Shown here piece after piece: positions 9,130-60,125 of a DNA stretch of 64,000 nucleotides. The stretch lies in contig NC_079217.1 of NCBI RefSeq assembly GCF_029633865.1, positions 926,463-990,462 on the forward strand, read 5' to 3'. Made by a program: the position numbers and the translations under genes. This stretch comes from Lampris incognitus (taxonomy: Eukaryota > Chordata > Actinopteri > Lampriformes > Lampridae). Under the pieces are notes generated by a model that saw only the letters and a list, made by a program, of their open reading frames with translations, did not search any database and had not been told where the DNA came from. Within the stretch, counting starts at the first letter, position 1. Each line of letters opens with the position of its first letter.

Positions 9130-10893
9130 AAGATTGTGGTGTTGGAGATTGGAGCGGATTTCAATAGTGATGGGAGCGGACTTCAATGGACATGTTGGTG
9201 AAGGGAGCAGAGGTGATGAGGAGGTGAAGGGTAGGTATGGTGTCAAGGAGAGAAATGTGGAAGGACAGATGGTGGTGGATTTTGTGAAAAGGATGGAAAT
9301 AGCTGTGGTGAATACATATTTCAAGAAGAGGGAGGAACACAGGGTGACGTACAAGAGTGGAGGAAAGTGCACACAGGTGGACTATATCTTATGTAGAAGG
9401 TGCGATCTAAAAGGGATTGGAGACTGCAAGGTGGTGACAGAGGAGAACGTAGCTAGGCAGCATCGGATGGTGGTCTGTAGGATGACTTTGGAGACCAAGA
9501 AAAGGAAGCGAGTCGAAGGCAGAGCCGAAGATTGTTTAACACAATCTTGGAAAGTCAGAGGATGCTGAGGAGTGGAGAAGAAGCATACTGGTACCGATTT
9601 TCAAGAACAGGGGTGATGTGCAGAACTGTAGCAACTACAGAGGTATAAAGTTGATCAGCCACAGCATGAAGATATGGGAAAGAGTAATAGAAGCTAGGTT
9701 AAGAGGAGAGGTGATGATCAGTGAGCAGCAGTATGGTTTCATGCCAGGAAAGAGCACCACAGATGTGATGTTTGCTTTGAGAATGTTGATGGAGAAGTAT
9801 AGAGAAGGTCAGAAGGAGTTACATTGTGTCTTTGTGGATTTAGAGAGAGCATACGACAGGGTGCCGAGAGAGGAGGTGTTGTATTATATGAGGAAGTCGG
9901 GAGTGGCAGAAAAGTATGTAGGAGTGGTGCAGGATATGTATGAGGGAAGTGTGACAATGGTGGTGTGTGGTTGGAATGGCAGATGGGATCAAGGTGGAGG
10001 TGGGATTACATCAAGGATCGGCTCTGAGCCCTTTCTTGTTTGCAATGGTGATGGACAGGTTGACGGACGAGATCAGGCAGGAGTCTCCATGGACGATGAT
10101 GTTTGCGGATGACATTGTGATCTGTATTGAGAGTAGGGTGCAGGTTGAGGAGAGCCTGGAGAGGTGGAGGTATGCACTGGAGAGAAGAGGAATGAAAGTC
10201 AGTAGGAGCAAGACGGAATACCTATGTATGAATGAGAGGGAGGACAGTGGAATGGTCAGGATGCAAGGAGTGGAGGTGACGAAGGCATATGAGTTTAAAT
10301 ACTTGGAGTCAACTGTCCAAAGTAACTGTGAGTGCAGAAGGGAGGTGAAGAAGAGAGTGCAGGCAGGGTGGAGTGGGTGGAGAAGAGTGTCAGGAGTGAT
10401 GTGTGACAGAAGGGTACCAGCAAGAGTTAAAGGGAAGGTTTACCAGATGGTAGTGAGACCAGCTATGTTATATGGTTTGGAGACAGTGGCACTGATGAAA
10501 AGACAGGAGGTGGAGCTGGAGGTGGCAGAGATGAAGATGCTAAGATTTTCATTGGGAGTGATGAAGAAGGACAGGATTAGGAACGATTATATTAGAGGGA
10601 CAGCTCAGGTTGGACGGTTTGGAGACAAAGAAAGAGAGACAAGATTGAGATGGTTTGGACATGTGTGGAGGAGAGATGCTGGGTATATTGGGAGAAGGAT
10701 GCTGAATATGGAGCTGCCAGGAAAGAGGAGAAGAGGAAGGCCAAAGAGCATGTTTATGGATATGGTGAGGGAAGACATGCAGGTGGCTGGTGTGACAGAG
10801 GAAGATGCAGAAGACTGGAAGAAATGGAAACGGATGATCCACTGTGGCGACCCCTAACGGGAGCAGCCAAAAGTAGTAGTCGTAGTAGTAGTC

Positions 10894-11028: not shown

Positions 11029-11432
11029 GGGTCCGCGGTGGTGTAGCAGTCTAAGCATCGGCTTTGTGTCGATGCAGTTGCCCACTGGGGACTGGGGTTC
11101 GCGCCCCGGTCTCGTCAGATCCGACTATGGCCGGACTCGATGAAGCAGCAATCATTGGCAAACGCTGTCTTCGGGAGGGGGGCGGAGTCGGCTTGTGTTC
11201 GTCACGTGAATGCGTCTCTGTGTGTGTCGGAAGAAACAGTGGTTCGGCCTGGAGTCGCCTTGTCACGAAAGTGGGGAGGCGGTCTCCTTCGAGACTGCCG
11301 GCCGGAGAGATGCAGTTGGCGAATGCATGCAGTACGAGGGTGGGTGTTTGAATTAAAAATAGGGATCGATTGGCCACTAAATTGGGAGAAAAAAGGGAAA
11401 AATCAGAAATAAATAAATAAAAAAAAGAAAAA
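11029..11432 (+). mobile_element. tRNA-derived SINE with 15-bp target duplication
   Basis: The head has a tRNA-like promoter: A-box-like tggtgtagcagtctaagc and B-box-like ggggttcgcgccccgg. The body carries atggccggactcgatgaagc and the tail is A-rich (aaataaataa). The direct repeat gaaatacttccacac stands at 11014-11028 and 11433-11447, so the ends are exact. A second, headless copy of the same body lies at 49676-49989. Long target duplications and an A-rich tail indicate LINE-driven retroposition. Confidence 0.9.
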
Positions 11433-11763: not shown

Positions 11764-12960
11764 GTTCTCAGTGTAGTTTTTCTTCATGATTGTTCTCACA
11801 ATTAGATTCTCCAGACTGGTATTTACTGTGGTGCCCAGATTATGAAACCTCTCCTCAAGCGTTTTCACCATCACTGAAATTATTGGGTCCCAATGCTTGG
11901 ATCTGTAGAGCTGCTTTGCGTCACTATATTTGCCAGGACCATCACATCTCAATCTTCCACCTGCTGTAGACATGGTGGGATCGTCAATGTCAGGTTTTTT
12001 GGACAGACACAGACACTCATCCCACAGACCATCAAAGGAGGAATACAAATTAATGTGATGCAGATTTGCTTTAAGGCAATCACTAGCCTCCTTTGCTTCA
12101 CACTGTGTGATTTTTTTTTTGGGGGGGGGGTTGCAAAACCTTGCTGTTCATCTCTGATCTTGTGAATACTTTCTTGCACATCATCAGGCCAAATAAGACT
12201 TCAAAAGATTTTAATCGTTTTGCCAGATCAGCACGTCCTTTGTCAGTTTCTGAGACTTCCTGCAGAGGCTCATGCAAAGCTTGGTAATTATCAAGTACAC
12301 TGTTGATATAGGGCATCCGGATGGTCCGCCTTGTGTGGCAAAGTAGGCACAGTGCACCTGAGCCCTTGTGTTTTAGGCTAGTGAACCTGGCAAGCCGCTT
12401 TTGACTACATGTGACAAAGTTCACCATATCCTGGACAAGGTAAATTGTGTTCCATACAAGATGTACCTCATGTGGCATTCTGTAAAATACCAAGTTCAGG
12501 ACATGGGATGAGCAGTGCACAAAAAATGCATTTGACTGCTCATCTCTTATTCTTGCCTACTCCTCCGAGTAGCAGCCTGACGTAGCACTGGCTTATTATA
12601 GCACTGGCTCTGGCAGTTTTGTAAAGGAATGTTTAGATGGAGCTGCACATCTTTAATGATGGTGGTCAGTGTTGCTGCATCTGACATCTCTGTACTGTAC
12701 ATTCTCACAAAATCTTCATATTACATCAAAATTGTCATTCACATGATGGAGGACAACTGTGACTCCTATAATTTGTGTTGTCTGTTGAGCTATCAATGAT
12801 CAGCGAGTAGAAGTGATTGTGATTTACTCTCTTGGCTATTTCACATATGCAACCATGAGCCAACATTTGTAGCATCGCTTTTTGTATGTCATGTCCCAGC
12901 CACTTGTAGTTATGCTGGAGCTAGTCAGCAAGATCCTGGTAGTCATGGGCCCGTATCATC
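11764..12960 (-). pseudogene. hAT-type transposase remnant (ZMYM1-like), minus strand
   Basis: From 12960 downwards the minus strand gives, in shifting frames, FYSLIIDSSTDNTN (the region of the first catalytic Asp), HCSSHVLNLVF (the hAT C/HxxH-like motif), and SVLDNYQALHEPLQEVSET (12290-12230). It then gives KYSDAKQLYRSKHWDPIISV and LEERFHNLGTT at about 11935-11820. This is the layout of hAT-derived proteins of the ZMYM1-like group. There are stops at several positions, a poly-T/poly-G run at 12111-12130 breaks the frame, and the N-terminal zinc finger and C-terminal dimerisation region are absent. It directly abuts the hAT terminus at 11763, so the other hAT may have inserted into it. Confidence 0.6.
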
Positions 12961-13714
12961 GGTAGTTGGTTCAAATTGCTGATTTCATCTGTGTGGCCTC
13001 GCATGGCAACCCGTTGTCAACCCGAGAATGCATCACCATCCCAGAACCGTGCCGAAAAACAATTTTAACCATCCTGAAGTGAATGTGAACCATCCCAAAA
13101 TCAAAATGTTTTTTCTTTACTTTATCATCATCTATAGTTGTTGTTGTTGTTGTTGTTGTTACTGGCATTACAAAAACAACATTGGAATGAGGAAATAAAT
13201 AATTACATTGGTTATTTATTTATTTATTTATTTGTTTGTTTGTTTTCAAGAAAAAAAAGTCAAACGTTTGCTGGTTCCAGCTTCTTTAATGTGAGGAGTT
13301 GTTGCTTTTCTTTGTCATTTATGACAGTAAATGAAGAGTCTTTGGGTTTTGAACTGTTGGCTGGACAAAAGGAGCAACCTGAAGACTTTACTTTGGGCTC
13401 TGGGAAATAGCGATGAAAATGTTTCACAATTTTTTAACATTGCACAGACTAAAAGATTAATAGTGCAAAAAATTCAGCATATTATTCAATAAAGAAAATA
13501 ATCAGTGGTTTTAGCCCTAAACCAGCAGGTAAGGAACAGACCTGTAAGACACAGAATTTAGTAACAGAATTATTTAAACATTCTGTGTCTCGGTCTGTTT
13601 TCTCAATCTTTGTACTAAGGTCTTCTTACTTTCAAGCCACTTCTCCACCACTTTGTCACAGTCATACTGCTGTGCAGGAGGACCATGAACAGATATTTGC
13701 AGTAGGCAGTTGCA
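12961..13714. other. no gene recognised; (TTG)n and TTTA/TTTG microsatellites
   Basis: (TTG)n at 13136-13160 and a TTTA/TTTG run at 13210-13243. The rest of the interval is AT-rich. The 90-codon frame over the microsatellite is low-complexity. Confidence 0.6.
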
Positions 13715-15332
13715 TCTGCCATCAAGACTGCTAGAGTCAACCCCCTTCTCAAGAAGCCATCACTTAACCCCTCTGACGTCAAAAACTACAGACCGGTTTC
13801 CCTTCTACCCTCTATCCAAAACTTTTAAACGTGCTGTCTTTAACCAACTTTCTTTGTGCCTCCACCAGAACTACCTCCTGGACCCCAACCAGTCTGGGTT
13901 CAAGGTGGGTCACTTGACAGAGACGGCCCTCCTTGCAGTGACAGAATCGCTGCACTCTGCGAGAGAAAACTCTCTCTCCTCTGTCCTGATACTCCTGGAC
14001 CTGTCAGCTGCGTTCGACACAGTGAACCACCAGATCCTCCTCTCTACCCTCGAGGGGCTGGGTGTTTCAGGCTCTGCACTCTCAATGTTTGCATCCTACC
14101 TGACAGGTCGCTCCTACCAGGTGACATGGAGGGGATCTGTGTCGGAGCCTCGCAGACTGACTACAGGCGTTCCACAAGGTTCGCTTCTGGGTCCTGACCT
14201 TTTCTCCCTGTACACGACATCCCTGGGTTCTATTATTCGCTCACATGACTTCTCTCACCATTGTTATGCCGATGACACCCAGCTGATCTTGTCCTTTCCT
14301 CCCTCTAACACACAAGTAGAGACACGCATTGCTGCGTGCTTGACTGACATCTCAGAGTGGATGGCGACGCACCATCTGAAGCTCAATCTGGACACAACAG
14401 AGCTGATGTTCCTCCCGAGGAAAGGTTGCCCACCCTGAGACCTGGCCATCACCATTGACAACACCGTGGTGACGCCAACTCGGACTGCAAGGAATCTGGG
14501 TGTGATCCTGGACGACCAACTGTCATTTGCTGCAAACGTTGCATCGGTTACTCACTCCTGCAGATTTCTCCTCTATAACATCAGGAGGATTCGCCCATTC
14601 CTCACCGACGAGATGGCACAGGTGCTCATCCAGGCTCTGGTCATCTCCCGGTTGGACTACGACAACTCCCTTCTTGCTGGCACCCCGACGTCGGCCATCA
14701 GACTTCTGGAGCTTGTTCAGAAAGCTGCAGCTCGTCTGGTGTTCAACCGCCCTAAGTTCTCCCACACAACTCCCCTTCTCATGTCCCTACGCTGGCTCCC
14801 AGTAGCTGCTTGCATCCAATTTCAGATTCTGGTGCTAGCCTACAGGGCAGGGAAAGGAACAGCTCCTTCCTATCTCCAGGCCATGGTCAAGCCCTACACC
14901 CCCGCCTGACCACTTCGCTCTGCTGCCTCGGGATGCCTGGTTGCCCCGTCAATCAGAGGCCCCTGCTGCCGATCGACCCGGTCACGGCTCTTTTCTGTCC
15001 TGGCCCCACAGTGGTGGAATGAACTCCCCACTGATGTCAGGACAGAGGAGTCGCTGCCCATCTTTCGGCGCAGGTTGAAAACTCAGCTCTTCAAGAACTA
15101 CTACTCTATTACTTGCTCTTAGCACTTATTGTATTCTCTCATTTTTAAAAAAAATATCTTTCTTGCGCTTTTACTTTAGCACTGGTTTTGCTCTTAGATG
15201 CTTGTTTAGAGAGAAGATGCACTTATGACCTCTGATGACTAGTAGTTCTCCTGATTTCCTACGTTAAATGCGCTTATTGTAAGTCGCTTTGGATAAAAGC
15301 GTCGGCTAAATGACTGTAATGTAATGTGAATG
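13715..15332 (+). mobile_element. L2-clade LINE, long reverse transcriptase with two in-frame TGA stops
   Basis: From about 13840 the + frame reads a reverse transcriptase: [48 protein letters not shown] and HCYADDTQL (catalytic YADD near 14270). The same frame resumes after a TGA at 14436 and runs to a second TGA at 14907, then to ELPTDVRTEESLPIFRRRLK. Both stops can be explained by single changes (the second by CGA to TGA). The 3' end, cgctttggataaaagcgtcg then gctaaatgac and a (aatgt)-type tail, is the standard teleost L2 end. The 5' part is truncated, with a frameshift near 13820. No clear target duplication, as usual for L2. Confidence 0.88.
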
Positions 15333-15339
15333 AAAAGCA

Positions 15340-16555
15340 GCATATTTTACTGCTTCAGTGATGGGGTCACAAGCTTTGCCCTCCCCTTCATGGCTGCACT
15401 TGCTTCCCTGTCATTAGGATCACTGGCATGGTTCTCGAAGTGCACCAAAATGGGCCTGTAGTTCCTCATCAAGGCTTCTAATGCGTGCAACATGTGTGGT
15501 AGCCAGCGAGTACCTTCAGTGTTGCCTGGTCTCACAATGGAAATAAATCTCCATCGCCTTGCTGATCTCCTGAAGTTCCTTGTGTGGCCTTGGCGGAGCA
15601 GGTGTAGTTCTTGTGGATGGCAAGTAGGGTTCGCTTGATGTCTTGCAGGTGAGGAACCTGTTTGACACAGTCTAGAGCAGCTAACTCTAGATGATGAGCC
15701 ACACAGCAGCTTGGGATGAGGGATGGGCACAAACGTTGGAGTTTGGCAGTCACGCCATTTTTCACACCCAGCGTAACGGCAGCTCCATCACACCCAAAGC
15801 CAACAAGACACTGTTTCAGGTCCTCCTCTCCCACTCTAACCTTAAACTGTCCAGCCAGAATGGCATCCAAAATGCCCTGGCTATGGGCATGTTCCAGGAC
15901 AACAGTCTGGATGAGCTGGTTCACTGGTTCGCCATTGTGGAGGTAGGTGCAGTAGGTAAGCTCCTGGTCCTTCAGTGATCGGTTGACTGAAGAGTCAGAT
16001 ATGACAGAAAAGAACCTGGCGGATTGCAACTTTTCCTGAAGCTCTTCAGTGAAGCATGAACCGATGGCTGTGATAAACATTCGGCATGCCTTGTCATTGC
16101 TATATGTTGTGCCGAGGTCCAGGCCGTTTGTATGATGGAGAGCCACTAGCTTGGGGAACATGGTGAAGGCGGCCTCCTCTTTAGCAGTGAAGTAGGCTAT
16201 GTTGAAGAGTTTCACCATCTTCTCTTTTATTGCTGCATCCATTCTGTCAAAACCTGACACTAGTGTGCCTCTTTCTGAGTGATCTCTTGCTTGTAGAGCA
16301 TCTTCGGCTGATTTGTGTGCAGTCATGGCTGCATGCTCTTTAATGCTTCTCACTCGTACTTTCCCTCCTGTTACACCATGAAACAGCCTGTTCCCCATTG
16401 CCTGAGCTGGACAGCTCCTACATGTTTTGCAGTACATAAGTTGTGCAGCTTCATCATATTCAATGAATGAATAGCACTTTTTTCTATTCAGGCAGAAATG
16501 TTCTTTTCCATTTTGCTTCATAGCCAGAGCTTCTTTCTTTCTGTAGAGAAGTAGA
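15340..16555 (-). pseudogene. hAT-derived ZNF862-like gene or transposase fragment
   Basis: A minus-strand frame (16555-15545) encodes a TTF-type finger-like N-terminus (CKTCRSCPAQAMGN, SIKEHAAMTAH). It is followed by an hAT core: VKLFNIAYFTAKEEAAF, RFFSVISDSSVNRS (first acidic residue), LVGFGCDGAAVTLGVKNG (second Asp) and IPSCCVAHHLELAALD (C-x-x-H). The pattern matches ZNF862-like hAT proteins. A frameshift lies near 15600: the expected continuation, WRFISIVRPGNTEGTRW to about 15350, is in another frame. The C-terminal dimerisation region is cut off where the L2 LINE ends. About 45 extra N-terminal codons come from an unrelated repeat. A decayed transposon is more likely than a host gene. 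Confidence 0.7.
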
Positions 16556-16685
16556 ATATTATTCCATCCATTATCCAAATCGCTTATGCTGCTGTCAGGA
16601 TCGCGGGGATGCTGGAGTCTATCCCAGCGGTCATTGGGCGGCAGGCGGGGAGACACCCTGGACAGGCCGCCAGGCCAGAATTGAT
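16556..16685. repeat. short dispersed teleost repeat
   Basis: The interval reads ccatccattatccaaatcgc, followed by a ggatgctggagtctatcccagc segment and ggcaggcggggagacaccct. I recognise this as a very common short repeat in fish genomes. The family name is not certain. Confidence 0.6.
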
Positions 16686-16739
16686 TTGGTCAAAAAGCTC
16701 ATTCATTCATTACTTGTGAAAAACGTCACAGTAAAAGAT

Positions 16740-18539: not shown

Positions 18540-19022
18540 TAGGTGGTGTTGAGTTTTATGTTGTTTTTCTGTGGAGTTTGAATTAAGTGTGTTTAAGTAC
18601 AACAATATAACTAGTGTTCCTGCAAATGAAGTCTGGTGGCTTTGCAGAGCGGCTGTTTCTATGTTTAAAATGATGTTTTACATTCATTCACATGAATACA
18701 TTCATTCACAGAAATGTCTGTCTCTGAGGGATTCTTTCATAATGTTGTGCGACATAACAATACGAGCCCGTGGCAAAAACAAGCACTTTTAAGAGGATGT
18801 ACCGTCACGGTGTGCACACGCAACCCATTTCGTGGCTGTACAAATTCATCCACAAATTGTTGTCCGCATTAGTCACGAGACACAAAACGTGGGAAAATGG
18901 GTGCACGGGTGGCGTGGTGGTCTATTCCGTTGCCTACCAACACGGGGATCGGCGGTTCGAATCCCCGTGTTGCCTCCGGCTGTGTCGGGCGTCCCTACGG
19001 ACACAATTGGCCGTGTCTGCGG

Positions 19023-22000
19023 TAGGCCTGCAACTAACGATTATTTTGGTAGTCGACTAATCTGTCGATTATTTTTTCGATTAGTCGACTAATCTAACGA
19101 TTATTTCTTTCACACCCTCCATCTCTGCTTCCTGAGGGCGCGGATCCTCTTCCGGGCTCCAGTGCATGTTTTACCTCACATGCTTAAGTCTGCACACCTG
19201 TGAATGTCGCCCTGTGTCTCTGTCTTAACATAACACGATCCCATAGCGAATTAAAATAATGACTCATGAAACATTTGAATTTGGAACTTGTTTTGGAGCT
19301 ACTTGTTTAATCAAATGCATCATCAATCATAATGAAAACTAAATAAATACATTAAATAATACAAATGAAAGTCAATGCATTATCAATCATAATAAAAACA
19401 AAGTAAATAAATTAAACAATGCAAATTAAAGTGCAAGTCAAAACGTAAAGATAATGTGCAAATAATGTTTTAAAAGTAACTCAAAATAGCAGCCTCTGCC
19501 CCAGCACCGCGGTTCTGATGGGGCTGTTAACCTGGTCCAGGAGGGGGACGTGGATCCACTCACTAGGCTCCACCATCTCCAACAGGAGGGGAGGATGAGT
19601 CAGATCAGACAGACTTGTAGGTCTTTTGTTTGCTGTGTGTGAGTGAGAGGAGCTGTGTGTGTGTATATGTGTGTCTTACTCTGATCTCATGCAGTTCATA
19701 AATGCTTTAAATTGCAGTGCAGGAACGTGAGCATGTCGACGTGCTCTGGAGTGAGGCTGGCTCTCTTCTTTGAGGCGATGTTCCCAGCTGCTGAGAAGAG
19801 ACACTCAGAGGGAGTAGAAGTAGCTGGAATACACAAAAACGATTTGGCTTGTGATGCAAGGGTTGGATACTTTGCCTCATTCAATTTCCACCAAGACAGG
19901 GGACTTTCTGTCTTTGAGAGGGGCTGCTCTCCGAAGTACATCAGCACTTCATTACTGATCGCTTGGTTGCGTGCATCCTGTTCATCATTGGTCTCACTGT
20001 CACTGTCTGTTGAGTCACATCCAAGCAGTGAATCGAGAGCTGAAACAGACCTATTTGGAGTTCCCGCAGCTGAGTCTGTGGCATCCTTGTCAGCTGATGC
20101 TGCTGTGGCTTCTTCATTCCCACTGGTGTGCTGGTTATTCACAGTACTCCCATCCTTGGACTGTAGGGCCAGAGCTTGTACTTTATTCTGAACAGTAAAC
20201 CTCTCCTCTGGTGTCAGGAATTTCAGTTTTCGAAATCGTGGGTCTAGTGCAGCTGCAATGATCTGTTTGCTTGGGTCATCATCTGTGATGGTGACCTCTC
20301 TTGACCAGCGTGCAGTGGTCTCCTCTGAAGCAGCCGCCTGGAAGGCCTGCACAGGAGCTGTATTATAGGCAGTGTGGGTGGACTTCAAAAGCCCTCTGAC
20401 TAGTGGAGGCAGGGCGGAGACTGTCACATAGCTTTCACCACTCAAGTAGACAGTGGCACATTCAAAGGCCTGGAGAGCTTTGGCCAGTTCATCTAGCAGG
20501 GTCCACTGATCAGCTTTGAGGTCTAGGTATTGTTTCCCTCTCTGTGTTACTGCCGGGTCAGACAGAGTCGCAGTCAGTGGCCATCTCTGTTCCAGCATGC
20601 GAGTCACCATATAATAGGTGCTGTTCCACCTGGTAGAGACATCTTGGACAAGTTTGTGTTCCGGGGTTCCCATCTGTTTCTGCTTTGTCTTAAGCTTGCT
20701 TGAAGCCAGTTCGCTCCTTTTAAAGTGCTCGACGAGACACCTCGCTGCTCCCAGTGCTTTACTGATCTGAGGGTGTTTCAGTGCACGATTGATCACCAAC
20801 TGTAAAGTGTGGCCTGCACAGCGGATAGACACCCACCCATGTTTTTCCTGCAAGATGTTTGCAGCCAGTACGACATTGGAGCCATTGTCATGAACAACTG
20901 CCACAATCTTGCTTGGAGGGATCTCAAACCTTTCCACAGCCTGCTCAATCCATGCAGCAATGTTGGGTCCAGTGTGCCGTTCTTCGAGTGGCATGGTTGT
21001 AAGGCAGAAGCTAGTGAGCTCCCAGTCATCACTTATAAAGTGACAGGTGATGCCAAGATATGCCTCTGTCGCGACACTGGTCCAGGCATCAGTTGTCAGG
21101 GCAATCTTGTTCTTGGTTGCTTTAAGAGCATCTTTAACCTTACCAAAAGTAGCTTCATACTTTCCCTCCATAAGCTTAGTAAAATGAGTTCTGGAAGGTA
21201 AGGTGTAACCTGGATGGAATGTGGTGACCATCTGCTTAAATCCCCCATCTTCAACCATGGATATTGGTCTCATGTCATTGACGAGCATGTTGAGGATGCT
21301 CTCTGTTAAGACTCCAGCCATTTGAGGGGTGCATGAGCCTCTCTTCAGGATGAACTCATCCACACGCCTTTGCTTAGTACTAAAATAGAAAGAGAACAAA
21401 ACAGAAAGCTGTATTAATTATCATCACAAGTTGTAGGCTATGGTATCAGTTTATCTTAGTGTACTGCCTAATACCAATTAAACCATTTAAATGAATAAAT
21501 ATCTTACAACTGAATTATTGATATGCTCCAACCCAGTCTAACTAGCTAACGCTACGACAAGCTACAGCTGATTAGAGCGCACTGTGAAAGCTAGTTGACT
21601 GTCTAGGCTACAGACAGCTCACGTTAGCACCGTGTCGTGTTTTTGCAGACTGCAGATTGACTAGCTAAGTAAGATAGCTAGCTAATGTTAGATGGTGCTA
21701 ACGTTCCCCGTCTCTGCAGTCTTGCCTGCGCTTTAGCCCAAAAAGTTCAATTTTTTTCAACTGAAAAAAAAGAAACCTAGAGCTCATAGCGTAAGTTACT
21801 GCAGAGTCAGTGAATGTTAGAACCCGTTAACAATTAGCTAACGTTAGCAATCTTAACTTAGCTAGTTAATACTCCAGTCTGCAAAAACACGACACTCGGT
21901 GATAAATGACGGAGCTAAACAACTCTAAGCTGTAGTGTGCTATGCTGCAAGCTTGGTGCTGTTTAGCTAATGTTACATACAGCTCGTTGGTGGATACGCA

Positions 22001-22587
22001 GAATCCACATAACTGAAATAGCGTTCGCTTAGCAAGCATCACCCTTGAGACGTTCTGTTTTCCAACATGTAACTTAAGCTAACGTAAACATTACGATACT
22101 GTGGCTAACTAGCTAAACTTACCCATGATCCGAAGTAGCAATCATCGTGGCTCCAGGGTGCTTGCGTTTCAAATGCTCGTGCATCGCCGTAGTGCTGCTG
22201 TGGAATGCCAATTCGGCTTTGCATATTCTGCATTTAACTGACTTCTTTGGCTTGTCATCTGTGAAATACTCCCAGACTTTTGATAGTCTCGGTCTCGCTG
22301 GTTTTTGCTCTTCATTAGCCTCATTCGCTCTCCTTTCCGCCATCGTTCATACGCTTTCTTCTTCTCTTCGTCGTTCATGCAAAATGCAGTTATATCAGAC
22401 GATGGAAGCGATACTGCCCCCAGCACTTCCTATAGGGCATTGCAGTTACAAATGAACATTTGTGCGGTTTTGAGTTAACGTTACTGGCTCTGATTGTTTT
22501 TATACGACGCGTCGAAGCTAAAATTCTGCGTCGACGAGTTTTTATGATCGACGTCGTCGATTATGTCGACTAATCGTTGCAGCCCCA
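19023..22587 (-). mobile_element. complete hAT transposon, exact 8-bp target duplication
   Basis: The left end is taggcctgcaactaacgatt. The right end in reverse complement is tggggctgcaacgattagtc. gtctgcgg stands directly outside both ends (19015-19022 and 22588-22595), the 8-bp duplication expected of hAT transposition. Sub-terminal sequence is rich in cgattagtcgac-like words in both ends, as in other teleost hAT elements of this type. Inside is a two-exon transposase gene without stops. Together these point to a young autonomous copy. The first terminal bases differ between ends (tagg versus tggg), which could lower activity. Confidence 0.93.
19696..22343 (-). CDS. hAT transposase with BED zinc finger, two exons, apparently intact
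   Basis: Joins 22343-22123 and 21379-19696 on the minus strand across a 743-bp intron (donor GG|GTAAGT, acceptor TATTTTAG|T). The frame is kept (Gly split across the junction), giving 634 aa. Exon 1 starts at MAERRANE and carries the BED finger: Cys38, Cys41, His57 and His62, DNA-binding for the transposon ends. Exon 2 holds the RNase-H-like core, with the first Asp in LTTDAWTS (about residue 171), the second in VVHDNGSNV (about 238) and the hAT CxxH motif CAGH (261-264). The C-terminal dimerisation block is [16 protein letters not shown] and [13 protein letters not shown] near the end. The role is cut-and-paste movement in the nucleus. A domesticated ZBED-like host gene is the alternative, but the perfect target duplication and flanking termini argue for a transposon. 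Confidence 0.9.
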
Positions 22588-22775
22588 GTCTGCGGGTGGG
22601 AAGTCGGATGTGGGTATTTGTCCTGGTCGCTGCACAAGCGCCTCCTCTGGTCAGTCGGGGTGCCCCCCGGATTGGCACAGAGGGGGTGGAGTAAGCAACC
22701 AGGGTGGCTCAAAAAGAGTGGGGTAATTGGCCAGATACAATTGGGGTGAAAATGGAGAAAGTTGAAAGAAAAAAA

Positions 22776-25700
22776 AACGTGGGAAAATATGGGAAACTGT
22801 TACACTTTAAAAAATACAGAAATTAATTTCCTTTTCCTGTTATGCCAAACAGATGCTCTGTCTGTCCTGCTGTTCTGGCTGCAACGTAGCTCTAAGCTCT
22901 GTTAGCTTTGTTAGCGGTTAGCTTCATTAGCTGACATTAGCTCAGTTAGCTTTTAATGCCGTGGAGCCATGGGGGGGGGGGGTTGGCTCGCAGGACTGTG
23001 TTGGCCACCAGCTACAAACAGCTAGCAGCCGACTAGCTCTCTGCAGCCTATTTCAACAGAGATTAACGTTAGCCACCCTCGTCAATAATTAGTTTACAGC
23101 ATCCTTTTCGGATTTTGACATGCCCTGGCAACTTCACCGCGATCATAAGTACATAAAAAATACAATATAAAAGCTACGTTACATCCATTTACATGTGGCC
23201 TTACTCCTTACCTCAGACTCGGGGTTCTCAGGTGTGCTGGTGGTTCTTAAAAGTGATGCAGAAGCGCCCTCTTGCGTTAACCACCGCAGCATGCCGAGGC
23301 CCTGCCAGCAAGCTGACTGTGACTGAGAGGATAGATGGACCGCTGCTGCGGGAACATTTCGGGTCTTCGTCGGTCTCGTGCTGATTAGCAAGCCAGTGAC
23401 AGTGAGTGACCATAGTGGCAGCATGAACAGACGCACTCTGATTAAATCGGCGCAAGGTTTAGTTTTCATTTGCTACGACAAAAGTCCCTTTCATCCTGGA
23501 GACGTCCCTGGGAAGATCTCTGATCGTCCTGAACACGTTCTCCATCGTCTCCAGGACGACGGGATGCTGTTAGTCTTGAGCCCTGCATGAGATCTTACGG
23601 TCTTCAGTAACGCTACGCTGCACTTTTCAGTTTCTTGAAACTCTTTTCTCTTGAGTGGCAGGAGAACACTCGTTGGAAGTGTGGCTGGAAAACTTTACTT
23701 CCATATAAGTGTGCAAGTTTTCATGTGATTTAATATCGCATGGTGGCCTTGGACCAATTCCTAAACCCATCAGAAATAAAAGGTTCCTCCCTCAGCTTGG
23801 AAAATGTAAAAAGATTCGGCTTGTCAGCCATTCTACCGCTACGACAGAATGCTCTCTCTACCTTGGAGTCCCATTTGAGCCCTGGATAGTCTTTAAACCA
23901 GCAGTGCTTGAAGGAGCTCTGAACATTTCTAAATAAGGACTTGGGAAACCAAATGTTTGATGATTTTGGGGTCCTCCTTAAGGTAGCGTCAAACCACTCC
24001 TAAAAATTAAACATCAGGAAAAACCAGTAAATATCCACACTGACCTAGCACCCTGCCTTTTAACATGCACTTCGTCATCAGCAACAGTTTACCGGAACCA
24101 CTTCCTTTGCAGTATCCAGTTCTCACACAGAACTTCAGAGAACACCACTTACGCTGCAAATCAACAGCAAACACAATGACACACTGTCGTAAGCAGTAAC
24201 AATCCTCATAGGACACAATGAATTTCTCATGTCTCTCCTCCCCCTCGTAACAGCCAGATGAAGTAGTGCCAGCATGGTAGACAAAGCTGCATAACAATGA
24301 TTCAAAGTCATCTAAAGGGATTTGTAAAATTTGTCGGGGAAAGGTGGGCAAAACAGGTTATAGTCATCCCAAATGCGAGTACTCATAAGAACATGCTGAA
24401 AAAGGATCAGAGCAGTATGCATAACCCACAGCATCCTCAGATTGTGGATGTGTTGTCACAGATTCTGCACAAAACTGAACAGCTTTTCTGTTTTTATCAC
24501 ATATTGTAAATATATTTTAATTATTATATTTCTTATATCTTTTCATGTTTTAGTGCAAATTTTTCTATTTTATATTGTTTTCTTGACCTTTGGTTTGTGT
24601 TTTTTTTTTTACAGTACTTGCACTTTTTTCGGCTATGTTCATTGTTATGCACCAAAACACCAGGTCAGATTCCTTGTATATGAAAACATACTTGGCAATA
24701 AACCTGGTTCTGATTCTGAGATGACTTCTAGGAAATGGCATCCCTTGCTGATCCCAGATTTAAACTGAGGGGCCGCCATCAGTAATGAAAAATAAGAGAA
24801 AAAGCTCTGCCTCAGCTGAGAGAGCGAGAGCCCAGTGAACAGTTTGACGTTTATTCAGCCAGAATGGAAGTCTATACTGCCATCCAGTCTACATCCCTCA
24901 CGGGTTGAAAATTAATGTTTTGAAAAGAGACAAAAGTTGTTCAAAAGACGTTCGTGGCCATGACCAGTGGCATGCTTAAAGCTAAACTATATGTCTGCAG
25001 ACATCTAATAGGTCACGACGGTGTGGCGCTATCTGTGGACGTTCTCAACAGGTCACTAGACCGACGAGCTTCTTAAACACAGTTTGTACTTTTATGGACA
25101 TCTATAATATGTCACTGACAGACGGACGGGCTGTCAACTTAGTTTTGACATCAGAGACATGGCCTGTTCACTGGGAAGGTAATTCATTAAACTAAAATGG
25201 CCCTGAAGCCGCAAGTATTTCAGTTGTCCTGCACTTAAGAGCCCTCTCTCGGTTGTATCCCCATGCATCTGACTTGGCGCCGGCCCACTTGACTCTTCCC
25301 TGCTCTGCTGTGCCGTCACGTTAAAGGTGGAAAAAGTTCTGACGTGATTTCTCTTTGTTTGTTTTTACATCACAAAAACCTGCCATTTTAACAGGGGTGT
25401 GTAGACTTTTTATATCCACTATATAATACTTCATTATGGCCATTTCTGCTTAGGTTAAATCTGGCACATCACAAATTATTAAATGCTCCATGGTGTTTTT
25501 TGTGAGATTGTTTTATTGTCTTTATCAAGTTCATCTTATTATGTTTCTTATTGTGTACTTTTATAGATTTAATTCCACATTTAGCTCCCTGGGGTGTTAT
25601 TATTTATTGTTTGTGTTATTTGTTTGTTTACATGTTATTGTGTTTTGTGTTCACACGCTTCTCCAAACAAATTGCCCGTAGCGGGATTAATGAAGTTGTT

Positions 25701-28797: not shown

Positions 28798-31700
28798 TCT
28801 TTATTGCCCCACAGGAAACTTATTTTCACAGCCAGTACATGCACAGATAACCCACACCGCAACATGTGTGTGTGTGTGTGTGTGTTTGTGTATATATATT
28901 TATATATATATATACATATACACACACACACAGACACACACACATATATACATACATACATACATACATACATACATACAGATACATAAACACATAACAT
29001 TCATTCTCTGCCTGTATTCCAGCACATATACCCGTATCACACCCACAGATAAATCTGGCTCTATGCTCGGTCAGCGAGGCAGTTTGTTTAGTGCCGCTTT
29101 GGCAGAAGGGATAAAACTTCTGCCGAAGCGGTCTCTTCAGAGTGCTATATCTACAGCCTGACAGCTTTAGTGTGAAATATGAATGGACGGGGTAATCAGT
29201 GTCATTCGCTACTTGGAGTGCAAGGCGTGTGATGGTTCTGTCGTTCATATCTGGGAGTTTGGGTGCAGGGGAAGGGATGATCTTGGAGGCAACATGTGTG
29301 ATCCCGGTAAGTTTGTTTTTGTTGGAGATGGTCAGCATGGTATAGAAACGGGGAACAGTACAGCCGGATGGGTTGGATTATGCTTTTGTAAAGTAACAAC
29401 AGAAGGTGATGTGATGGGGGGGGGTGCAGAAAGTGCTCTGAACTTGGGGATAACGTGGAGCCTCTGCTGGGATCGTTTATGGATATCAGTGATGTATTGA
29501 TCAAAGCTGAGCTTTATTGTCTGAAGTGGGTCCCAAGATATTTGAAGTTGTTAACCCATTCTGCTCGCTTGCTGTGGATGGAGATGAGGTTCAGGCCAGC
29601 GAGGGGCGTGTTTAGTGTGTTAATGACCAGTTCTTTTGTCCATGTTCAGTTGGAGGTAGTTGTCCATGCACCACTGTGTAAAATGAGAACTGGAGTGTTG
29701 ATTGGTTGTGATGGAATTATTGTCAATAAGTAATCCCAGAATGGCAGCATCATCAGAGTATTCGTAGTCAGTATCATCAGAGTATTTGTAGTCAGCATCA
29801 TCAGAGTATTCGTAGTCAGTATCATCAAAGTATTTGTAGTCAGCGTCATCAGAGTATTTGTAGTAAGTGGTGATGGGTGAAGGGCTGATGCAGTTGTTTG
29901 TGTCGAAAAAGGGACTGAGGACACAGCCCTGAGGGACTCCAGTGTTGGTGGTGATGGTTGATGATGTTACTCTGCCTGTTCTTACAGCCTGTGGTCTGTT
30001 GCTAAGGAAGTTGTACACCCAGTGGATGAAGATTGGAGGGATGTTGAGATGGTGGAGTTTCTTGATAATTTTGTGGCATTGAATTGTGTTGAAGGCAGAG
30101 CTGAAGTCGAAGAGAATTGAAGAGAAGTTGCCAGGTGATTCCAGAAGTTGGAGGAGGGAGTCAAGGAGACATATAATTGCCTCCTCTGTCCCCCATTTTG
30201 CCCTGTAGGCAAACTGATATGGGTCCAGCTGTGGACTGACAGCTGGTAGGTTGGTGCACAGGATCGGTTTTTCCAGACATTTCGTGGCTATTATGGTGAG
30301 TGCAACCGGTCGGTAGTGGTTGGGTTCAGAGGGGTGGAGCTTCTTGGGTAAGAGTATAATGGTATATATTTTCCAGAGGGTGGGAATTGGTGCTGTCCTA
30401 TAGGATTCCCAGAAGATGGAGTAGAGGATGGGGGTGAAGCTCCATGGTGCAGAGTTTGAGCACCCTAGCCGGGATGCCGTCCAGCCCTGATGCCTTGCCA
30501 AGTTTGCACCTACCCAGCTGCTGTCGTACTTCCTCCATTGTGAAGGTTGGGTGTGGGCTGGTTAGAGGGGAGGACACTAAGCAGCTCCTCACAGAGTGGT
30601 TGTGAACGTCAAACCGTGTGTAAAAAGTGTTCAGAGTGTTTGCAAAGGTGGTGGGGTCTGTGATTGTGGAATGATCTTGAATTGATTTATAAGCAGTTAG
30701 TGTTCCTACTAAATGAAAGGCTTGTTTTGTGTTCATGCTGCTAAACTCCTGCTCCAATCTGTCCTTATATTTGAGTTTGACCTTGATAATGTCATGTTTT
30801 TACCAATTTAGAGCAGACTATTATAAAGTGTCAAGGTTATCTATGCCATATGTTGTATGTTCACCCACTAACCCAGTCTGTTGTCTCTATCCAGGATGGA
30901 TTCTGATAGACCGCAGCGGAAAACACTTTGGTAGCATCCTGTGCTACTTGCGGGAGGGAACTGTCACCTTGCCCAAAGGCCAGCAGGCTGTCCTGGAGTT
31001 GCTGGCAGAGGCCAAGTATTACCACATCCCAGGCTTGGTTGAGCTCTGCCAAAACAGCCTGCAAGTCAGTAGAAGCCAAAGTGACTGATATTTAGAATAA
31101 TGTTTTTTTCTATTCTCTTCTGTGATATTTTATCCCTTCTCAGTCAACATTATATTGCTGCTAAGCACCATCATTGTTTATATTTCAAGGATTTTAAAGA
31201 AACCCACATAATTATGTTCTATAAATAACATTTGAAATGGCATGTGAAAGAGGGCTCAAAACTGAAAGGGACCTGAAAAATCATTTGGAGAAAGATTCGT
31301 TGGCTTTTTGCATTTGATTGATTAGCATAGATTTCAACATTTTGCTAACCCAGAATAGATTAGTGTATTTTTTTTATGTAAGAAATGGAATTTGGGCAAC
31401 ATATCGCATTGCAAAATCTACTTGTCTTAGTAATTTCACAAGAACATGCCTTCATCTTGGTAATAGAAAAGTACAATTACAGTCACAGGGTGGCAATGTT
31501 GCATCGAGAGCATGGATGCCAAGGAACCGGAGGCTTTGACCCAGGCACGCCTGTGTGGCGTTTACATGTTCTTCTTGTGTGTGTTTGGGTTCCCTGTAGG
31601 CACTACGGTTTCCTCCCACTGTCCAAAGAAATGCTTTTTGGGTGGATTTGAGACTTGAAGAGGTATGAATTATTGTGCGCGTGGGCCCTGTAATGGATAG

Positions 31701-34700
31701 GCGGCCTGTCCAGGATTTCTCCGTACCCCCTAATGGCTACCTGGGCAGGCTCCAGCTACCTTAGCCTCAAATTAGATCAAACTGGGACAGACAGAGATTC
31801 ATGAGTTGTAATCATAAATCTGGATGTTATGGCCCAGGTCTGGAGAAGATTGTGTTTTTTAGCAGTACCCGGCCTTGATTATATCATTGCTTATGGGTTT
31901 CACCATGTTTTTCTCTGGAGGTGGTGGAACGGTGGAACGGTGTTGGGAGCTTAGCGGTTTAATGAGTAATGTTCTAAGGAGGTTTTCGAGTGCTCAGTTG
32001 TGCGTTGCCATTGCATTTGATTCTCTGCTGAGACTGTGCCGCCATAAGCCCTGTAGGGAGTAGAATCAAGATCTTTCATCCTTGAAGACATTTCAGTGCT
32101 TGGACACAACTGCACGGGGTTTGCTGAAGTGAGTATACCGCGGCTACAGAAGCAGACTGCATGTAGCACTTCGCTGTTGACAGCTGACTTGCTCTGGACC
32201 GGTGTGTGTCGTTACGCCTCAAGGCTGGGGCAGCAGTACGGTTTGCTGTGGTGCCGTCAGACCAAGACAAGTGGCAGTGCATATGTATCACCATGACAGA
32301 CGTTCACTGGAATGCCTTTTGGGCTGACAGTTGGTGCTTGAACTTGCCAAGGTTTAGACATCCCCCTGTTTCCATGGGGACAGATTGCACGACAGCAGCT
32401 CTTCTTTGAATCAAGCCCGCGGTGCATTCAGAGAAGCTTGCTCTGACTCTTACCATCCCGACGCTTTATGAATGAACATCAGAGGCTCAGCAGTTCTTGT
32501 GCGATGAGTAATTGTCACTCGCAGCTTTTAGTTGTGTGTATCTATGTAAGACGGAGATGTTTTGGCCACAGTCTCGTCTCTCAAGCATTGCTTGGAAACC
32601 AGCGACCGGTCCTAATTCAGATTCAAGACTGTCTGGTATGTTTCTCATCCTGGCAGGAAGCAGCAGGAGAAACTTGTCCCAGCAAAGGGACTTGCTCCCG
32701 GTTGTCCTGCTGTTTGAACTGCTGCGGACTTCCTGATGTAAACGTCACATGCACCTGGTTACACACAGCTTCTAGTTCGATAGAACATGGCCACTGAGTC
32801 TGCCTACACATTTTACCGGCCTGCTTGCTTTAAGTGTTTGTGTTTTTTTCTAGATGGACATTCAGCAGAAATGCTCCATTTGAACTTTGTCTGAAGATAG
32901 ACTAAGTGAAGGCTGTACCTGGGTGTGGTGGGCGTAAAGTCTCGATCAGAAACACTCACTAGTCACAGGTTCTTGTCACCAGATTAACCAGCCACTTTTT
33001 GCTGGTTTGCCGGCCACAGACGTCGATGGTGAGATGAGATGTGTAAGTTATGGTTGTTACCCACCACGCTGAGTTGTGGAGTCATTTCCCAGCTGCAGTC
33101 GAGGTTGGCTGTTTGTTTGGTTTAAATTTGCCTGGTAGTGTTTTGGTGACACATGGCATGTTGTAGATAAGTCTTATAAACTCCATTTCCAGTGTCCTGC
33201 TCCCCAGAGACCTGCTGGCGTTGGTGTCATAGACGTTTGTGTGTCCTTGACTGACAGGACAGTAAGGAGCAGGCTGTGTGTGTAATACCGTGTGTTGTGT
33301 CCTTGACTGACAGGACAGTAAGGAGCAGGCTGTATGTGTAATACCCGTTATCACTTCAGTTAAGGAGGAGGAGAGGCTCATCCACACTTGTGCCAAGGTA
33401 AGAAAGTGTGTGTGTGTGTATGTGTGTATTTAATGGAATACGTTGGATGCAGTGTTTTAACCTGTACATGTTCTTACTGTTCCTGTTGAAACTTGTGTGT
33501 AAAGTGTGTAAAGCTGGGTGGGGATACTGCATGTGTACATGTTCTTGCTGTTCATGTTGAAACTTGTGTGTAAAGTGTGTAAAGCTTTCTATCAACAAAT
33601 CACTGTCCCCTGCATCTGACTCAGCAGCACCTACTCCGGCCCCTCTTCTCCCCATTCCTCTTGACCTCCATCCCCCTCCCCCTGATTGCCGCCTCTCCTG
33701 GTTTGTTCCAGTTGCCCCCACCACTATCTCTGAACTCATCAGCTCATCAAAATCCACAACCTGCTCCCTTGATCCCCTCCCCACCTGTCTACTGAAGAAA
33801 TGCCTCCCTGCCCTATGCCCCTAACTCACCAAACTTTTCAATGCCTCACTGTCCCATGGGATTGTCCCCTCTGCCTACAAAACTGCAGCTGTCACCCCAA
33901 TTCTCAAGAAACCTGGTCTTGATCCATCCTGCCTCAACCACTACCAGCCAATTTCCAATCTCCCCTTCCTCTGTAAAACCCTGGAATGCATTGTCGCCAC
34001 ACAACTCCAAACCTACCTACACTCCAACAACCTGCTCAAACCCCTCCAGACCGGTTTTCGCCCACTCCACAGCACTGAAACTGCACTCCTTAAAGTACTT
34101 AATGACCTCCTCACCTCTGCTGATACTGGAGCCCTTAACATCCTCATCCTGCTCAACCTGAGTGCAGCCTTTGATACTGTGAGCCACAACATCCTGCTCA
34201 CCAGATTGAAAGATGTCGGTATTGAAGGCACCGTACTCAGCTGGCTCCAGTCTTACCTCTCCAACAGGTCACCCTTCATCTCACTTCACAACCACTTCTC
34301 TGTTCCATCCACAGTCACACAAGGTGTCCCCCAAGGTTCTGTACTCGGCCCGCTCCTTTTCATCATCTACATCCTCCCTCTTGATCAGATTCGCCGCCAT
34401 TTCAACTTGGACTTCCACTGTTATGCTGATGACACCCAGATATACCTCAGCACCAAATCCCCTCACAATCCACCCCTCTCTCACATCGACTCCTGTCTGT
34501 CTGCAGTTAAAGTGTGGATGCAGCAAAACCTCCTCAAACTCAACAGTGACAGAACTGAACTCCTCTTCATTGGCTCCAAGTCCACTCTCAGCCAAATCAA
34601 CAACCTTGCACTCACCATCGATGGCAGAACTGTCTACCCTTCCTCCCAGTCACGCAACTTTGGTGTGATCCTTGATCCCTCCCTCTCCCTCGAGCCACAT

Positions 34701-37700
34701 ATCCGCCAAATGGTCAAATCCTCCTTCTACCACCTTCGCATCATTGCAAAAATAAGATCCTCTCTCACACGCCCTGCTGCTGAGATACTGATCCATGCCT
34801 TCATCTCTTCCCGCCTTGATTACTGCAACTCACTCCTCTGTGGCATCAGTGCTAGCTCTATCAAGAGACTCCAACTGGTCCAGAATGCATCCGCCCGACT
34901 TTTAACTTTCACCAAATCCTGGCATCACATCACCCCAGTCCTAAAAGACCTCCACTGGCTACCCATCCCCCACCGGATTAGTTACAAAATCCTGGTTCTT
35001 ACTTATAAAGCCCTTCACAAACTGGCTCCCCCATACCTCACCGACCTCTCCCCCTACCAACCCTGTCGGTCCCTCAGATCCACCTCAGCCTCCCTTCTCT
35101 CCACCCCCAGGTCCAACCTCTGCGGCTTTCGTGACTGAGCCTTCTCCAGAGCAGCTCCCAGGCTCTGGAACTCACTTCCCCAAATCATTAGAGACACAGA
35201 ATCCCTCCCACTCTTTCAGTCCCATCTCAAGACACACCTTTTCTCCATTGCCTTCTCATGCCCCCCCGTCCGCTCATCCATCCCTGTATGTCTGTGTTAT
35301 GTTTATCTGTCGTCTTGTTTCACCCCGTTTATTGTAAAGCCACTTTGAGTTTTAAAAAAGCGCTATGTAAGACTGATTTATTATTATTATTATTATAAAG
35401 CTGGGTGGGATACTGCATGTGTACATGTTCTTGCTGTTCATGTTGAAACCTGTATGTATGTGTAAAGTGTGTAAAGCTGAGTGGAATACTGCACGTGTAC
35501 ATGTTCTTGCTGTTCATGTTGAAACTTGTGTGTAAAGTGTGTAAAGCTGGGTGGGATACTGCACGTGTACATGTTCTTACTGTTCGTATTGAAACTTGTG
35601 TGTATGTGTAACGTGTGTAAAGCTGAGTGGAATACTGCACGTGTACATGTTCTTACTGCTCATGTTGAAACTTGTGTGTAAAGTGTAAAGCTGGGTGGGA
35701 TACTGCACGTGTACATGTTCTTACTGTTCATGTTGAAACTTGTGTGTATGTGTAAAGTGTGTAAAGCTGAGTGGAATACTGCACGTGTACATGTTCTTAC
35801 TGTTCATGTTGAAACTTGTGTGTATGTGTAAAGTGTGTAAAGCTGAGTGGAATACTGCACGTGTACATGTTCTTACTGTTCATGTTGAAACTTGTGTGTA
35901 TGTGTAAAGTGTGTAAAGCTGGGTGGAATACTGCACGTGTACATGTTCTTACTGTTCATGTTGAAACTTGTGTGTATGTGTAAAGTGTGTAAAGCTGGGT
36001 GGGATACTGCACGTGTACATGTTCTTACTGTTCATGTTGAAACTTGTGTGTATGTGTAAAGTGTGTAAAGCTGAGTGGAATACTGCACGTGTACATGTTC
36101 TTACTGTTCATGTTGAAACTTGTGTGTATGTGTAAAGTGTGTAAAGCTGAGTGGAATACTGCACGTGTACATGTTCTTACTGTTCATGTTGAAACTTGTG
36201 TGTATGTGTAAAGTGTGTAAAACTGAGTGGAATACTGCACGTGTACATGTTCTTACTGTTCATGTTGAAACTTGTGTGTATGTGTAAAGTGTGTAAAGCT
36301 GGGTGGAATACTGCACGTGTACATGTTCTTGCTGTTCATATCGAAACTTGTGTGTATGTGTAAAGTGTGTAAAGCTGGGTGGAATACTGCACGTGTACAT
36401 GTTCTTGCTGTTCATATCGAAACTTGTGTGTAAAGCTGGGTGGGATACTGCTTGTGTACATGTTACTCAGTTTAATCGGTCTGTCGCTGTCTGAGATTTG
36501 TCCGTAACCAGGTTATGTAGATATTAAAGCCATTCATTCAGGTTTCTCTGTCTGCTAGCCTGTGGTGAAGCTGGTGTACAACAGAAGCAATAACAAGTAC
36601 TCCTACACAAGGTAAGCGAGCACGCCTCCTCAGCTCCTGCTGGCTTCGGCTGATCATTACAGGTTGATTGATTTTAAGTGCTGTATTGGGAAAGTGCATT
36701 TTGTGCGAGTGACTAAAGTTGTTATTAGCTGCAGGCCAGTAGTGGAGTCAAGTATTAAGCATTTACCCCTCCACTGAGATGTTTGGTTTTGTGCGACAGC
36801 AACTCTGATGACAACCTGCTGAAGAACATCGAGCTGTTTGACAGGCTGTCTCTGAGCTACAATGGACGCATCCTCTTCATCAAGGACGTGATCGGTGATG
36901 AAATCTGCTGCTGGTCTTTCTACGGGCAGGGTCGCAAGTTGGCTGAAGTCTGCTGCACCTCTATAGTCTATGCTACCGAAAAGAAGCACACTAAGGTGAG
37001 GACACTTACCTTTTGCCACATTGTAGTTTTCTTCCCTCCCTCCTGTTTAATTTGAACTCGGCTGCTTCAGATGATGAGACTCGACTACTCATCAGTGTTA
37101 GCCAGTGTTTTAAACTCTTCAGTTGTGGTGTTATTAGAGAAAGATATGTTTTACTGCGTTTTGTTGACATTTCCTTTAACCAGTGCAGAACGCTGTATTG
37201 GGTCAGACTTTATCCTCAGTCGAGGCTGAAGTTTCTCAAATCCATCCCTCACACCAAGCTAGTAGGAGAAACATCTTCAACCTGCAACTCTGCAGTGTGC
37301 GTTTCTAGCTTGCTGATGCTGCCATCACCCCACTGCTGGTTTTCTGATGCAGCCGTAGCTTAAACAGCTGTTTACATGTCGGTCATTTCTCATATGTAGG
37401 CTGCGTAGCAATCTATTCAGTAGAGGTCAGCACCACCACCAGTGCAGCTCCAGTAGAAGAAATAGTGTGATGGTGAATCTTATTTGCTTTGTTGTAGGTG
37501 CAATGAAGTGTGCTTATTGCAGTTTCACAAGTCAAATGAATTGTGGTCATTTTGGCTTTGCAATTTCATATGTGTAGTGAATAATGCATGTTGTAGTTTA
37601 GGATCCTGTTGGAAACCGGGTACAATTTTTAAATTTTTTTTTCTCCACCAAATCTCTTGTTTCTCCCCGTCCCAGGTGGAGTTTCCTGATGCACGCATCT

Positions 37701-49514: not shown

Positions 49515-50190
49515 GGTTTTTGTTTTGATCCCCCCCCCTCCCTTTTTCTCCCCAATTGTATTCGGCCAATTACCCCACTCTTCCGAGCCGTGCCGGTCTC
49601 TGCTCCCCCCCCCCCCTCTGCAGACCCGGGGAGGGCTGCAGACTGCCCCATGCCTCCTCCCATACATGTGGAGTCCCCATCAGACCCGACTATGGCCGGA
49701 CTCGATGAAGCAGCAGTAATCTCCAGCGCCGTCTCCGGGAGGGGACGGGGTCGACTTGTGTTCGTCACATGACTGCGTCTCGGTGTGTGGGGGAGGGGGG
49801 GGGGGCGGTGGTTCGGCCTGGATTCACCTCGTCACGGAAGTGGCGAGGCGGCTCCTTCCAGACTGCCGGCCGGAGAGATGCGGTCGGCGAACGCACGCAG
49901 GGCGAGGGTGGGGGTTTGAACTAGAATGGGGGTCGGCTGGCCACTAAACGGGGGGAAAAGGGGAAAATCAGAAATAAATTCAGGGACGAGTGGAGTCACC
50001 AGCCGAGTCTTTTCACCTGACACTGAGGAGTTTCACCAGGGGGACGTAGCTCGTGGGAGGATCACGCTCTTCCCCCCAGTTCCCCCTCCCCCCAAACAGG
50101 CCTCCCGACCGACCAGAGGAGGTGCTAGTGCAGTGACCAGGACGCATACCCACATCCAGCTTCCCACCCACAGACACGGCCAGTTGTAGT
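49515..50190 (-). mobile_element. tRNA-derived SINE, reversed, split by another SINE
   Basis: On the minus strand the order is tggccgtgtctgtgggtggg, then cctcctctggtcggtcggg, ggtgaaactcctcagtgtca and gaaaagactcggctggtgac. After a gap (49676-49989) it continues with ccccgggtctgcagag and gggtaattggccgaatacaa plus the tail. This is the family found at 18900-22775. Confidence 0.8.
49676..49989 (+). mobile_element. headless SINE inserted into the reversed SINE
   Basis: The body cccgactatggccggactcg to gactgccggccggagagatg and the tail aaaatcagaaataaatt match 11100-11410. It lacks the tRNA-like head. gtggagtc occurs at 49668-49675 and 49990-49997, a likely target duplication. Confidence 0.78.
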
Positions 50191-51215: not shown

Positions 51216-51507
51216 GTGCAGAAAGGTCCAGGCCAGGGCCCACTGCCAACATGCTGTGGAAGAAAACGAAGGGGAAACCCTAAGTGTTGTCATTTGTTCA
51301 TTGTGTATTTGCTTCTTTGTCTGTGTTGCTATGTTGGCCAAAAACAACTTTAAAAGAGGTTGTGTTATTGGGTGTCAGAAGACAGATGTGTGCTGTCATG
51401 AAATCTTCCAGGGGCCCCGACTCTCGTGTTTCCGTTTGCCCATTTTTCTATAGAAAGTCGTACTTGAGTTGAAGTCTGACTCGCTCTAGTGTGACTTTTC
51501 CTTCTGC
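51216..51507. other. left flank of the 20-bp array
   Basis: Unique-looking sequence with no recognised gene. Confidence 0.5.
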
Positions 51508-59904: not shown

Positions 59905-60125
59905 GGCTCTGCCACATGACGGAAACTAAGCAGGTGTGGGCTTGGCTAGTACTTGGATGGGAGACCTCCTGGGAAAATGAGTTGCTGCTGGAAGTGGTGG
60001 GCCAGTAGGGGGCAGTCTTCCCTCTGGTCCTGATTAAAAACAACAAATATCAAATCCCAGTGCAGTGACAGGGACACTGTGCTGTAGGAGATGCCGTCCT
60101 TCGGATGAGACGTTAAACCAATCTT
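59905..60125 (+). mobile_element. 5S rRNA-derived SINE (SINE3-like) fragment
   Basis: 59926-59975 reads gaaactaagcaggtgtgggc, then ttggctagtacttggatggg and agacctcctggga, nearly the internal promoter half of 5S rRNA (aagcaggg...tacttggatgggagacc). Instead of a 5S 3' end it runs into ggacactgtgctgtaggaga, then tcggatgagacgttaaacca, the body of 5S-derived SINEs. The first half of the 5S part is decayed. Not a functional 5S gene. Confidence 0.8.

Follow-up and report, generated by a model that had tools for sequence, protein, structure and literature searches.

Tol2 and Tgf2 are active hAT elements of fish (for Tgf2, according to an excerpt of PMC4890040, which also describes active hAT elements as rare in vertebrates). 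Tips of the CAGAG type distinguish them from the element described below, with its TAGGC and TGGGG tips. In common with both, the present element is an intact hAT transposon in a genome whose repeats suggest a fish, and encodes a BED-type finger. According to an excerpt of PMC4746887, Ac and Charlie dominate among the hAT families of four teleosts, and the DNA transposons of teleosts are comparatively young and active, so that an intact young copy, which resembles the Ac-type families of teleosts in these respects, is unsurprising in itself.

The reference compared herein is Hermes, a housefly hAT element (PDB 6dww, 4d1q, 8edg), which, like the present element, possesses a BED finger and an 8 bp target site (excerpt of PMC10368747), and for which D180, D248, R318, W319 and E572 are listed as essential residues (excerpt of PMC6027215). 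The DDE core, C-X2-H pair, R-W pair, catalytic glutamate and dimerisation domain align between the two, whilst the relationship as a whole is remote (phmmer E-value 7.7e-26, in two stretches), with Hermes R588 replaced by Ser615 and the arginine that follows its catalytic glutamate by Cys600. The element lies in the window, which is the whole 64 kb stretch of DNA analysed, and probably falls in the Ac-like (hobo/Hermes/Ac) group. It is very probably an intact, autonomous, cut-and-paste hAT transposon, from a young subfamily that acquired its tips, and in most copies Cys600, stepwise from an ancestor with TAGGG at both ends and Arg600.

Methods

The host genome searched comprises 1.48 Gb in 537 contigs, from which 40 full-length copies were retrieved with 500 bp flanks. 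A frame was scored as intact at exactly 1905 coding bases; this excludes in-frame length changes, and thus copies L090 and L095 are counted as not intact even though they are open and read to the usual end. Pattern scans across the genome found left ends at 119 places, right ends at 108 and codon-600 sites at 97, whilst a reversed control pattern returned no matches in any of the three. Among the matches listed, 96 left rows were used (two 290 bp fragment ends and two two-mismatch rows being dropped) and 97 right rows (three one-mismatch rows being dropped), together with all 97 codon-600 rows. Elements were classed on three characters only: the fifth base of the left tip, the second base of the right tip and codon 600. 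The core contains 32 copies, L092–L099 being excluded as older or longer-branched.

Results

The hAT element proper occupies 19023–22587 of the window and is 3,565 bp in length (Table 1). The earlier note had placed it at 19015–22595, which is the correct location, but those limits take in both target-site duplications. On the plus strand GTCTGCGG occurs only at 19015–19022 and 22588–22595, and its reverse complement is absent from the 64 kb window, such that the exact 8 bp duplication reported on both sides is borne out, as are the matching termini, with the 12-mers TAGGCCTGCAAC and TGGGGCTGCAAC being identical at 10 of 12 positions. All six occurrences of CGATTA in the element, a motif chosen post hoc, fall inside the two terminal 130 bp zones, where the CGATTA and TCGAC repeats are possible binding sites for the BED domain. 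The left-end 20-mer, allowing up to three mismatches, has one match, and none in 100 shuffles; this, together with the 40 full-length genome copies described below, excludes chance as the origin of the element.

Table 1. Features of the element and of its host SINE (positions in the window)
Feature	Position	Strand	Comment
SINE target-site duplication, left copy AAAACGTGGGAAAAT	18884..18898	+	15 bp; perfect pair
SINE, tRNA-derived in appearance, split by element	18899..22773	+	Left part 18899-19022, right part from 22596
Left target-site duplication GTCTGCGG	19015..19022	+	Exact match to 22588-22595
hAT element, 3565 bp	19023..22587	- (gene strand)	At least 40 full-length host-genome copies
Left terminal inverted repeat TAGGCCTGCAAC	19023..19034	+	Position 5 is C; G in older copies L098, L099
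Left subterminal zone, CGATTA / TCGAC repeats	19023..19152	+	4 CGATTA; putative BED-domain binding sites
Transposase exon 2	19696..21379	-	Catalytic core, hAT dimerisation domain, stop
Cys600	19801..19803	-	Arg in L098, L099 and Hermes
Catalytic Glu599 (Hermes E572)	19804..19806	-	Alignment to Hermes
Catalytic Asp238 (Hermes D248)	20887..20889	-	Alignment to Hermes
Catalytic Asp171 (Hermes D180)	21088..21090	-	Alignment to Hermes
Intron, 743 nt, GTAAGT...TTTTAG (GT-AG)	21380..22122	-	Imperfect palindrome inside at 21624-21905
Transposase exon 1	22123..22343	-	Carries start codon and BED zinc finger (residues 21-63)
Right subterminal zone, CGATTA / TCGAC repeats	22458..22587	-	Motifs counted in element
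Right terminal inverted repeat TGGGGCTGCAAC, read inward	22576..22587	-	Position 2 is G; A in L098, L099
Right target-site duplication GTCTGCGG	22588..22595	+	Exact match to 19015-19022
SINE target-site duplication, right copy AAAACGTGGGAAAAT	22774..22788	+	Identical to left
Second SINE copy, target site unbroken (paralogous empty site)	50104..50187	-	74/84 bases identical across joined flanks

The insertion interrupts a SINE that we read as tRNA-derived from its appearance; ARAGORN reports no tRNA within it. The second copy of this SINE in the window runs straight through the target site, demonstrating that the element arrived after the SINE. L075, a further copy of the element, also resides in a SINE of this family, and here too the flanks, once joined, align without interruption.

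The transposase gene lies on the minus strand, and its two exons encode 634 codons plus a stop, uninterrupted by stop or frameshift, as had been proposed for this two-exon BED-hAT gene; its intron is of the GT-AG type. Pfam profiles recover both domains, with the BED zinc finger (PF02892) matching over profile positions 1–44 of 44 (43.9 bits, E-value 2.4e-11) and the hAT C-terminal dimerisation domain (PF05699) over 5–83 of 84 (65 bits, E-value 5.3e-18); a DUF659 match to the transposase falls under its cut-off. No catalytic residue is missing, with all five Hermes-essential residues present at D171, D238, R324, W325 and E599. Here R324 and W325 correspond to Hermes R318 and W319, whilst C261 and H264 match the Hermes C-X2-H pair. 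The counterpart of Hermes R588, which is among the tip-contacting residues named in an excerpt of PMC4763223, is Ser615. At residue 600 the hAT profile prefers arginine by about 5 bits: the protein of copy L098 scores 70.1 bits against 65.2 for that of the window, and residue 600 is the sole difference between the two in the profile-matched stretch as printed. Within the intron, an imperfect palindrome of 282 bp (21624–21905), which recurs in the other copies listed, is possibly an old nested MITE.

Searching the host genome revealed at least 40 full-length copies at 98–100 % identity (40 scored of 214 candidates), so that the search for near-identical relatives proposed in the earlier note returned them in number: 33 of the 40 round to 100 %, five to 99 % and two to 98 %. 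Duplications of 8 bp are exact in 31 of the 40 copies and of 7 bp in two, with none clear in the other seven; the duplication of L084 falls in an AT repeat and carries little weight. Within the 250 bp flanks of these 40 copies, the one match of 90 % identity or more is between L063 and L082, on the left side. Of 30 duplications, 20 have T as their second base, and A is the seventh base in 20 as well, a preference that fits the nTnnnnAn motif typical of the Ac-like hAT group; the window duplication GTCTGCGG has the T but not the A. For L089, on a short contig, the left flank finds a full-identity match to itself alone, and hence no empty allele, among 40 scored of 1746 candidates. The 634-codon frame is complete in 32 of the 40 copies, and a stop or frameshift is present in six (L074, L080, L082, L088, L092 and L094); L083 keeps the frame and has lost the splice donor GT.

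Some copies display structures of their own. L063 and L082 face opposite ways at a distance of about 65 kb (G000:C1, near 37.86 and 37.79 Mb), each preceded by an identical extra 290 bp left-end fragment, and represent either a duplication in inverted form or an artefact of assembly. L100 and L101, on different contigs, share a SINE-like insert (95 % like window 11030–11426) that occupies one and the same place in the intron and has a duplication of 14–15 bp; from this shared insert, an insert-bearing element seems to have transposed onward. Beyond the host, viral contigs contained no relative in an exon 2 protein scan and two end-pattern scans, and plasmids yielded no tblastn match to exon 2. 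In prokaryote contigs a 16-mer scan gave 51 loci, with blastn of the element returning four matches, each of no more than 31 bases, and tblastn none. Searches of the literature with the sequence letters of the element ends and of the SINE found no match. A widespread fish MITE may carry a TAGGGCTGCAACTAACGATTATTTT end similar to that of the element.

The multiplicity of copies also bears on whether the gene could be a domesticated, ZBED-like gene of the host rather than a transposon. ZBED1, a domesticated hAT gene, is a single host gene. An open frame that joins BED and hAT dimerisation domains, and a weak match to the BED domain of ZBED1 (2ct5, E-value 0.00091), are what such a gene would display; the window gene is, however, multicopy and mobile, with intact ends and duplications, at least 40 near-identical dispersed copies and an insertion within a SINE. 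Codon changes within the core, counted per copy, number 22 silent and 49 replacement, showing no sign of selection and no strong constraint after insertion. We therefore consider domestication highly improbable, the multiple copies with duplications having ruled it out, and treat the gene as that of a transposon.

Elsewhere in the window, a minisatellite of 7.8 kb (51503–59266; 20 bp unit, about 388 copies, 93 % match) gives rise by chance to three very long open frames on the minus strand, and just past it is a 5S rRNA-like sequence (59875–59993; 47 bits against an Rfam threshold of 38). Two open stretches on the minus strand, 12098–12556 and 15532–16689, look to us like other, broken relatives of hAT or zinc-finger transposases; the former has no Pfam match at an E-value of 0.001, and the latter matches the C17orf113 zinc-finger profile under its cut-off. 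Reverse-transcriptase frames of non-LTR-like retrotransposons are found at 9955–10857, 13689–14438, 29620–30561 and 33825–35138, and a UnaL2 LINE 3′ element at 15266–15319.

With regard to the tips, a consensus of (T/C)A(A/G)NG for hAT elements (Rubin et al., as quoted in an excerpt of PMC6027215) is satisfied at both ends by the older copies L098 and L099, whilst the window copy, whose left tip is TAGGC and right tip TGGGG, departs from it once at each end; this being a consensus, such departures do not exclude hAT membership. They could nevertheless be decay after insertion, leaving the window copy already immobile, which the earlier note had raised as one of two possibilities for the differing first bases and which we ourselves initially supposed. 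Identical departures are, however, harboured by 33 of the 40 full-length copies, most of which lie at distinct sites and have exact duplications, and the same class is the commonest of the 84 paired elements among the matches listed. Tips shared at so many independent sites are inherited, and decay is thus ruled out as an explanation, retaining almost no probability. The remaining tips amongst the 40 copies are TAGGC/TGGAG in one, TAGGG/TGGGG in three, CAGGG/CGGGG without a duplication in one, and TAGGG/TAGGG in L098 and L099, the most diverged.

These inherited tips belong to a family that has moved recently. Pairwise differences within the 32-copy core average 7.6 substitutions per 3565 bp (0.21 %) and the tree is star-like, which, with the near-identity of the copies, indicates that the family amplified very recently. 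Recent movement, which had been put forward from the window alone, is accordingly well supported, and movement today is possible. The core carries 90 singleton substitutions, or 2.8 per copy (0.079 %), corresponding to roughly 0.08–0.4 million years under assumed rates of 2e-9 to 1e-8 substitutions per site per year, which are not specific to the host; the true age would be lower still if assembly errors inflate the singletons. Compared with the majority sequence of the 40 copies, the window copy has three differences, one common to seven other copies and two private (20066, coding, and 21833, intron). An initial bound from neutral survival of the single copy (at most about 1–2 % divergence since insertion) is superseded by these real copies. 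Exact length was likewise set aside as a sign of youth (within 10 bp in 30 of 32 against 13 of 22 among the matches listed), since elements of the ancestral class differ slightly in their standard length.

Comparison of both tips with codon 600 reveals a ladder of changes. Among the matches listed, 84 paired elements could be classed, and those with left G, right A and Arg600 number 22, plus three without the codon; five of these 25 have a further change in left-tip letters 1–2. Left G, right G occurs with Arg600 in 10 and with Cys600 in seven. Left C, right G and Cys600, with 32, is the commonest class, the same tips accompany Arg600 in two (L083 and L090), and eight fall in other classes, two of them with His600. 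None of the 84 paired elements listed has the left change without the right one, and none combines Cys600 with left G and right A. Amongst additional copies, all 11 readable codon-600 pieces from elements with a TAGGG right end encode arginine (20 of 26 further places fetched), whilst Arg600 accompanies a TGGGG right end in L102, L103, L105 and L106. The simplest order is thus from TAGGG-type ends to the right-tip change A2G, then Arg600Cys, and lastly the left-tip change G5C. An older copy carries the same neighbouring base change as L083 and L090, which suggests that the Arg600 of these two came by gene conversion and not by independent reversal. The window copy itself belongs to the young subfamily of about 34 sites with TAGGC/TGGGG tips and mostly Cys600.

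Discussion

Whether this ladder mattered for the burst is a separate question. The starting bases of the terminal repeat can be essential for cleavage in Kat1 (excerpt of PMC4763223), and Hermes has arginine after the catalytic glutamate, as the hAT profile prefers, making the three departures of the commonest class notable. One reading is that the hAT lineage rewrote its own cleavage signal through A2G, Arg600Cys and G5C, and that this set drove the latest burst; a co-adapted Cys600 enzyme would then perhaps ignore older copies with unchanged tips. We regard this as unlikely. Rather, we lean towards the burst having other causes, such as escape from silencing, chance or recent arrival, with the two tip changes and Arg600Cys carried along as passengers in the lineage that founded it. 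Master copies drifting neutrally would equally leave a nested ladder, two copies of the final class (L083 and L090) have Arg600, and the fixed codon differences from L098 and L099 (three silent, seven replacement) approximate the ratio within the core. Against passengers, each of the three changes is at a position where an effect on cleavage would be expected, and Arg600 is preferred by the hAT profile, as the scores of the L098 and window proteins attest. Of the two, passengers are the likelier.

The element combines an 8 bp duplication, a dimerisation domain, DDE and R/W residues and a BED finger, all features of hAT transposons. By analogy with Hermes (excerpt of PMC10368747), the BED fingers of a protein that would be both produced and active may bind the subterminal repeats, whilst its RNase H-like DDE core would bind and cut the tips. 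The transposase would then excise the element, leaving hairpins on the flanks, and reinsertion would generate the 8 bp duplication, favouring nTnnnnAn.

Each family that is young and intact offers a candidate tool for gene transfer and also contributes insertional variation. Here, moreover, stepwise change of both tips and of a neighbour of the active site, with the intermediates persisting in one genome, constitutes a natural experiment, and the ladder bears on which tip letters a hAT transposase needs and on whether enzyme and ends co-evolve.
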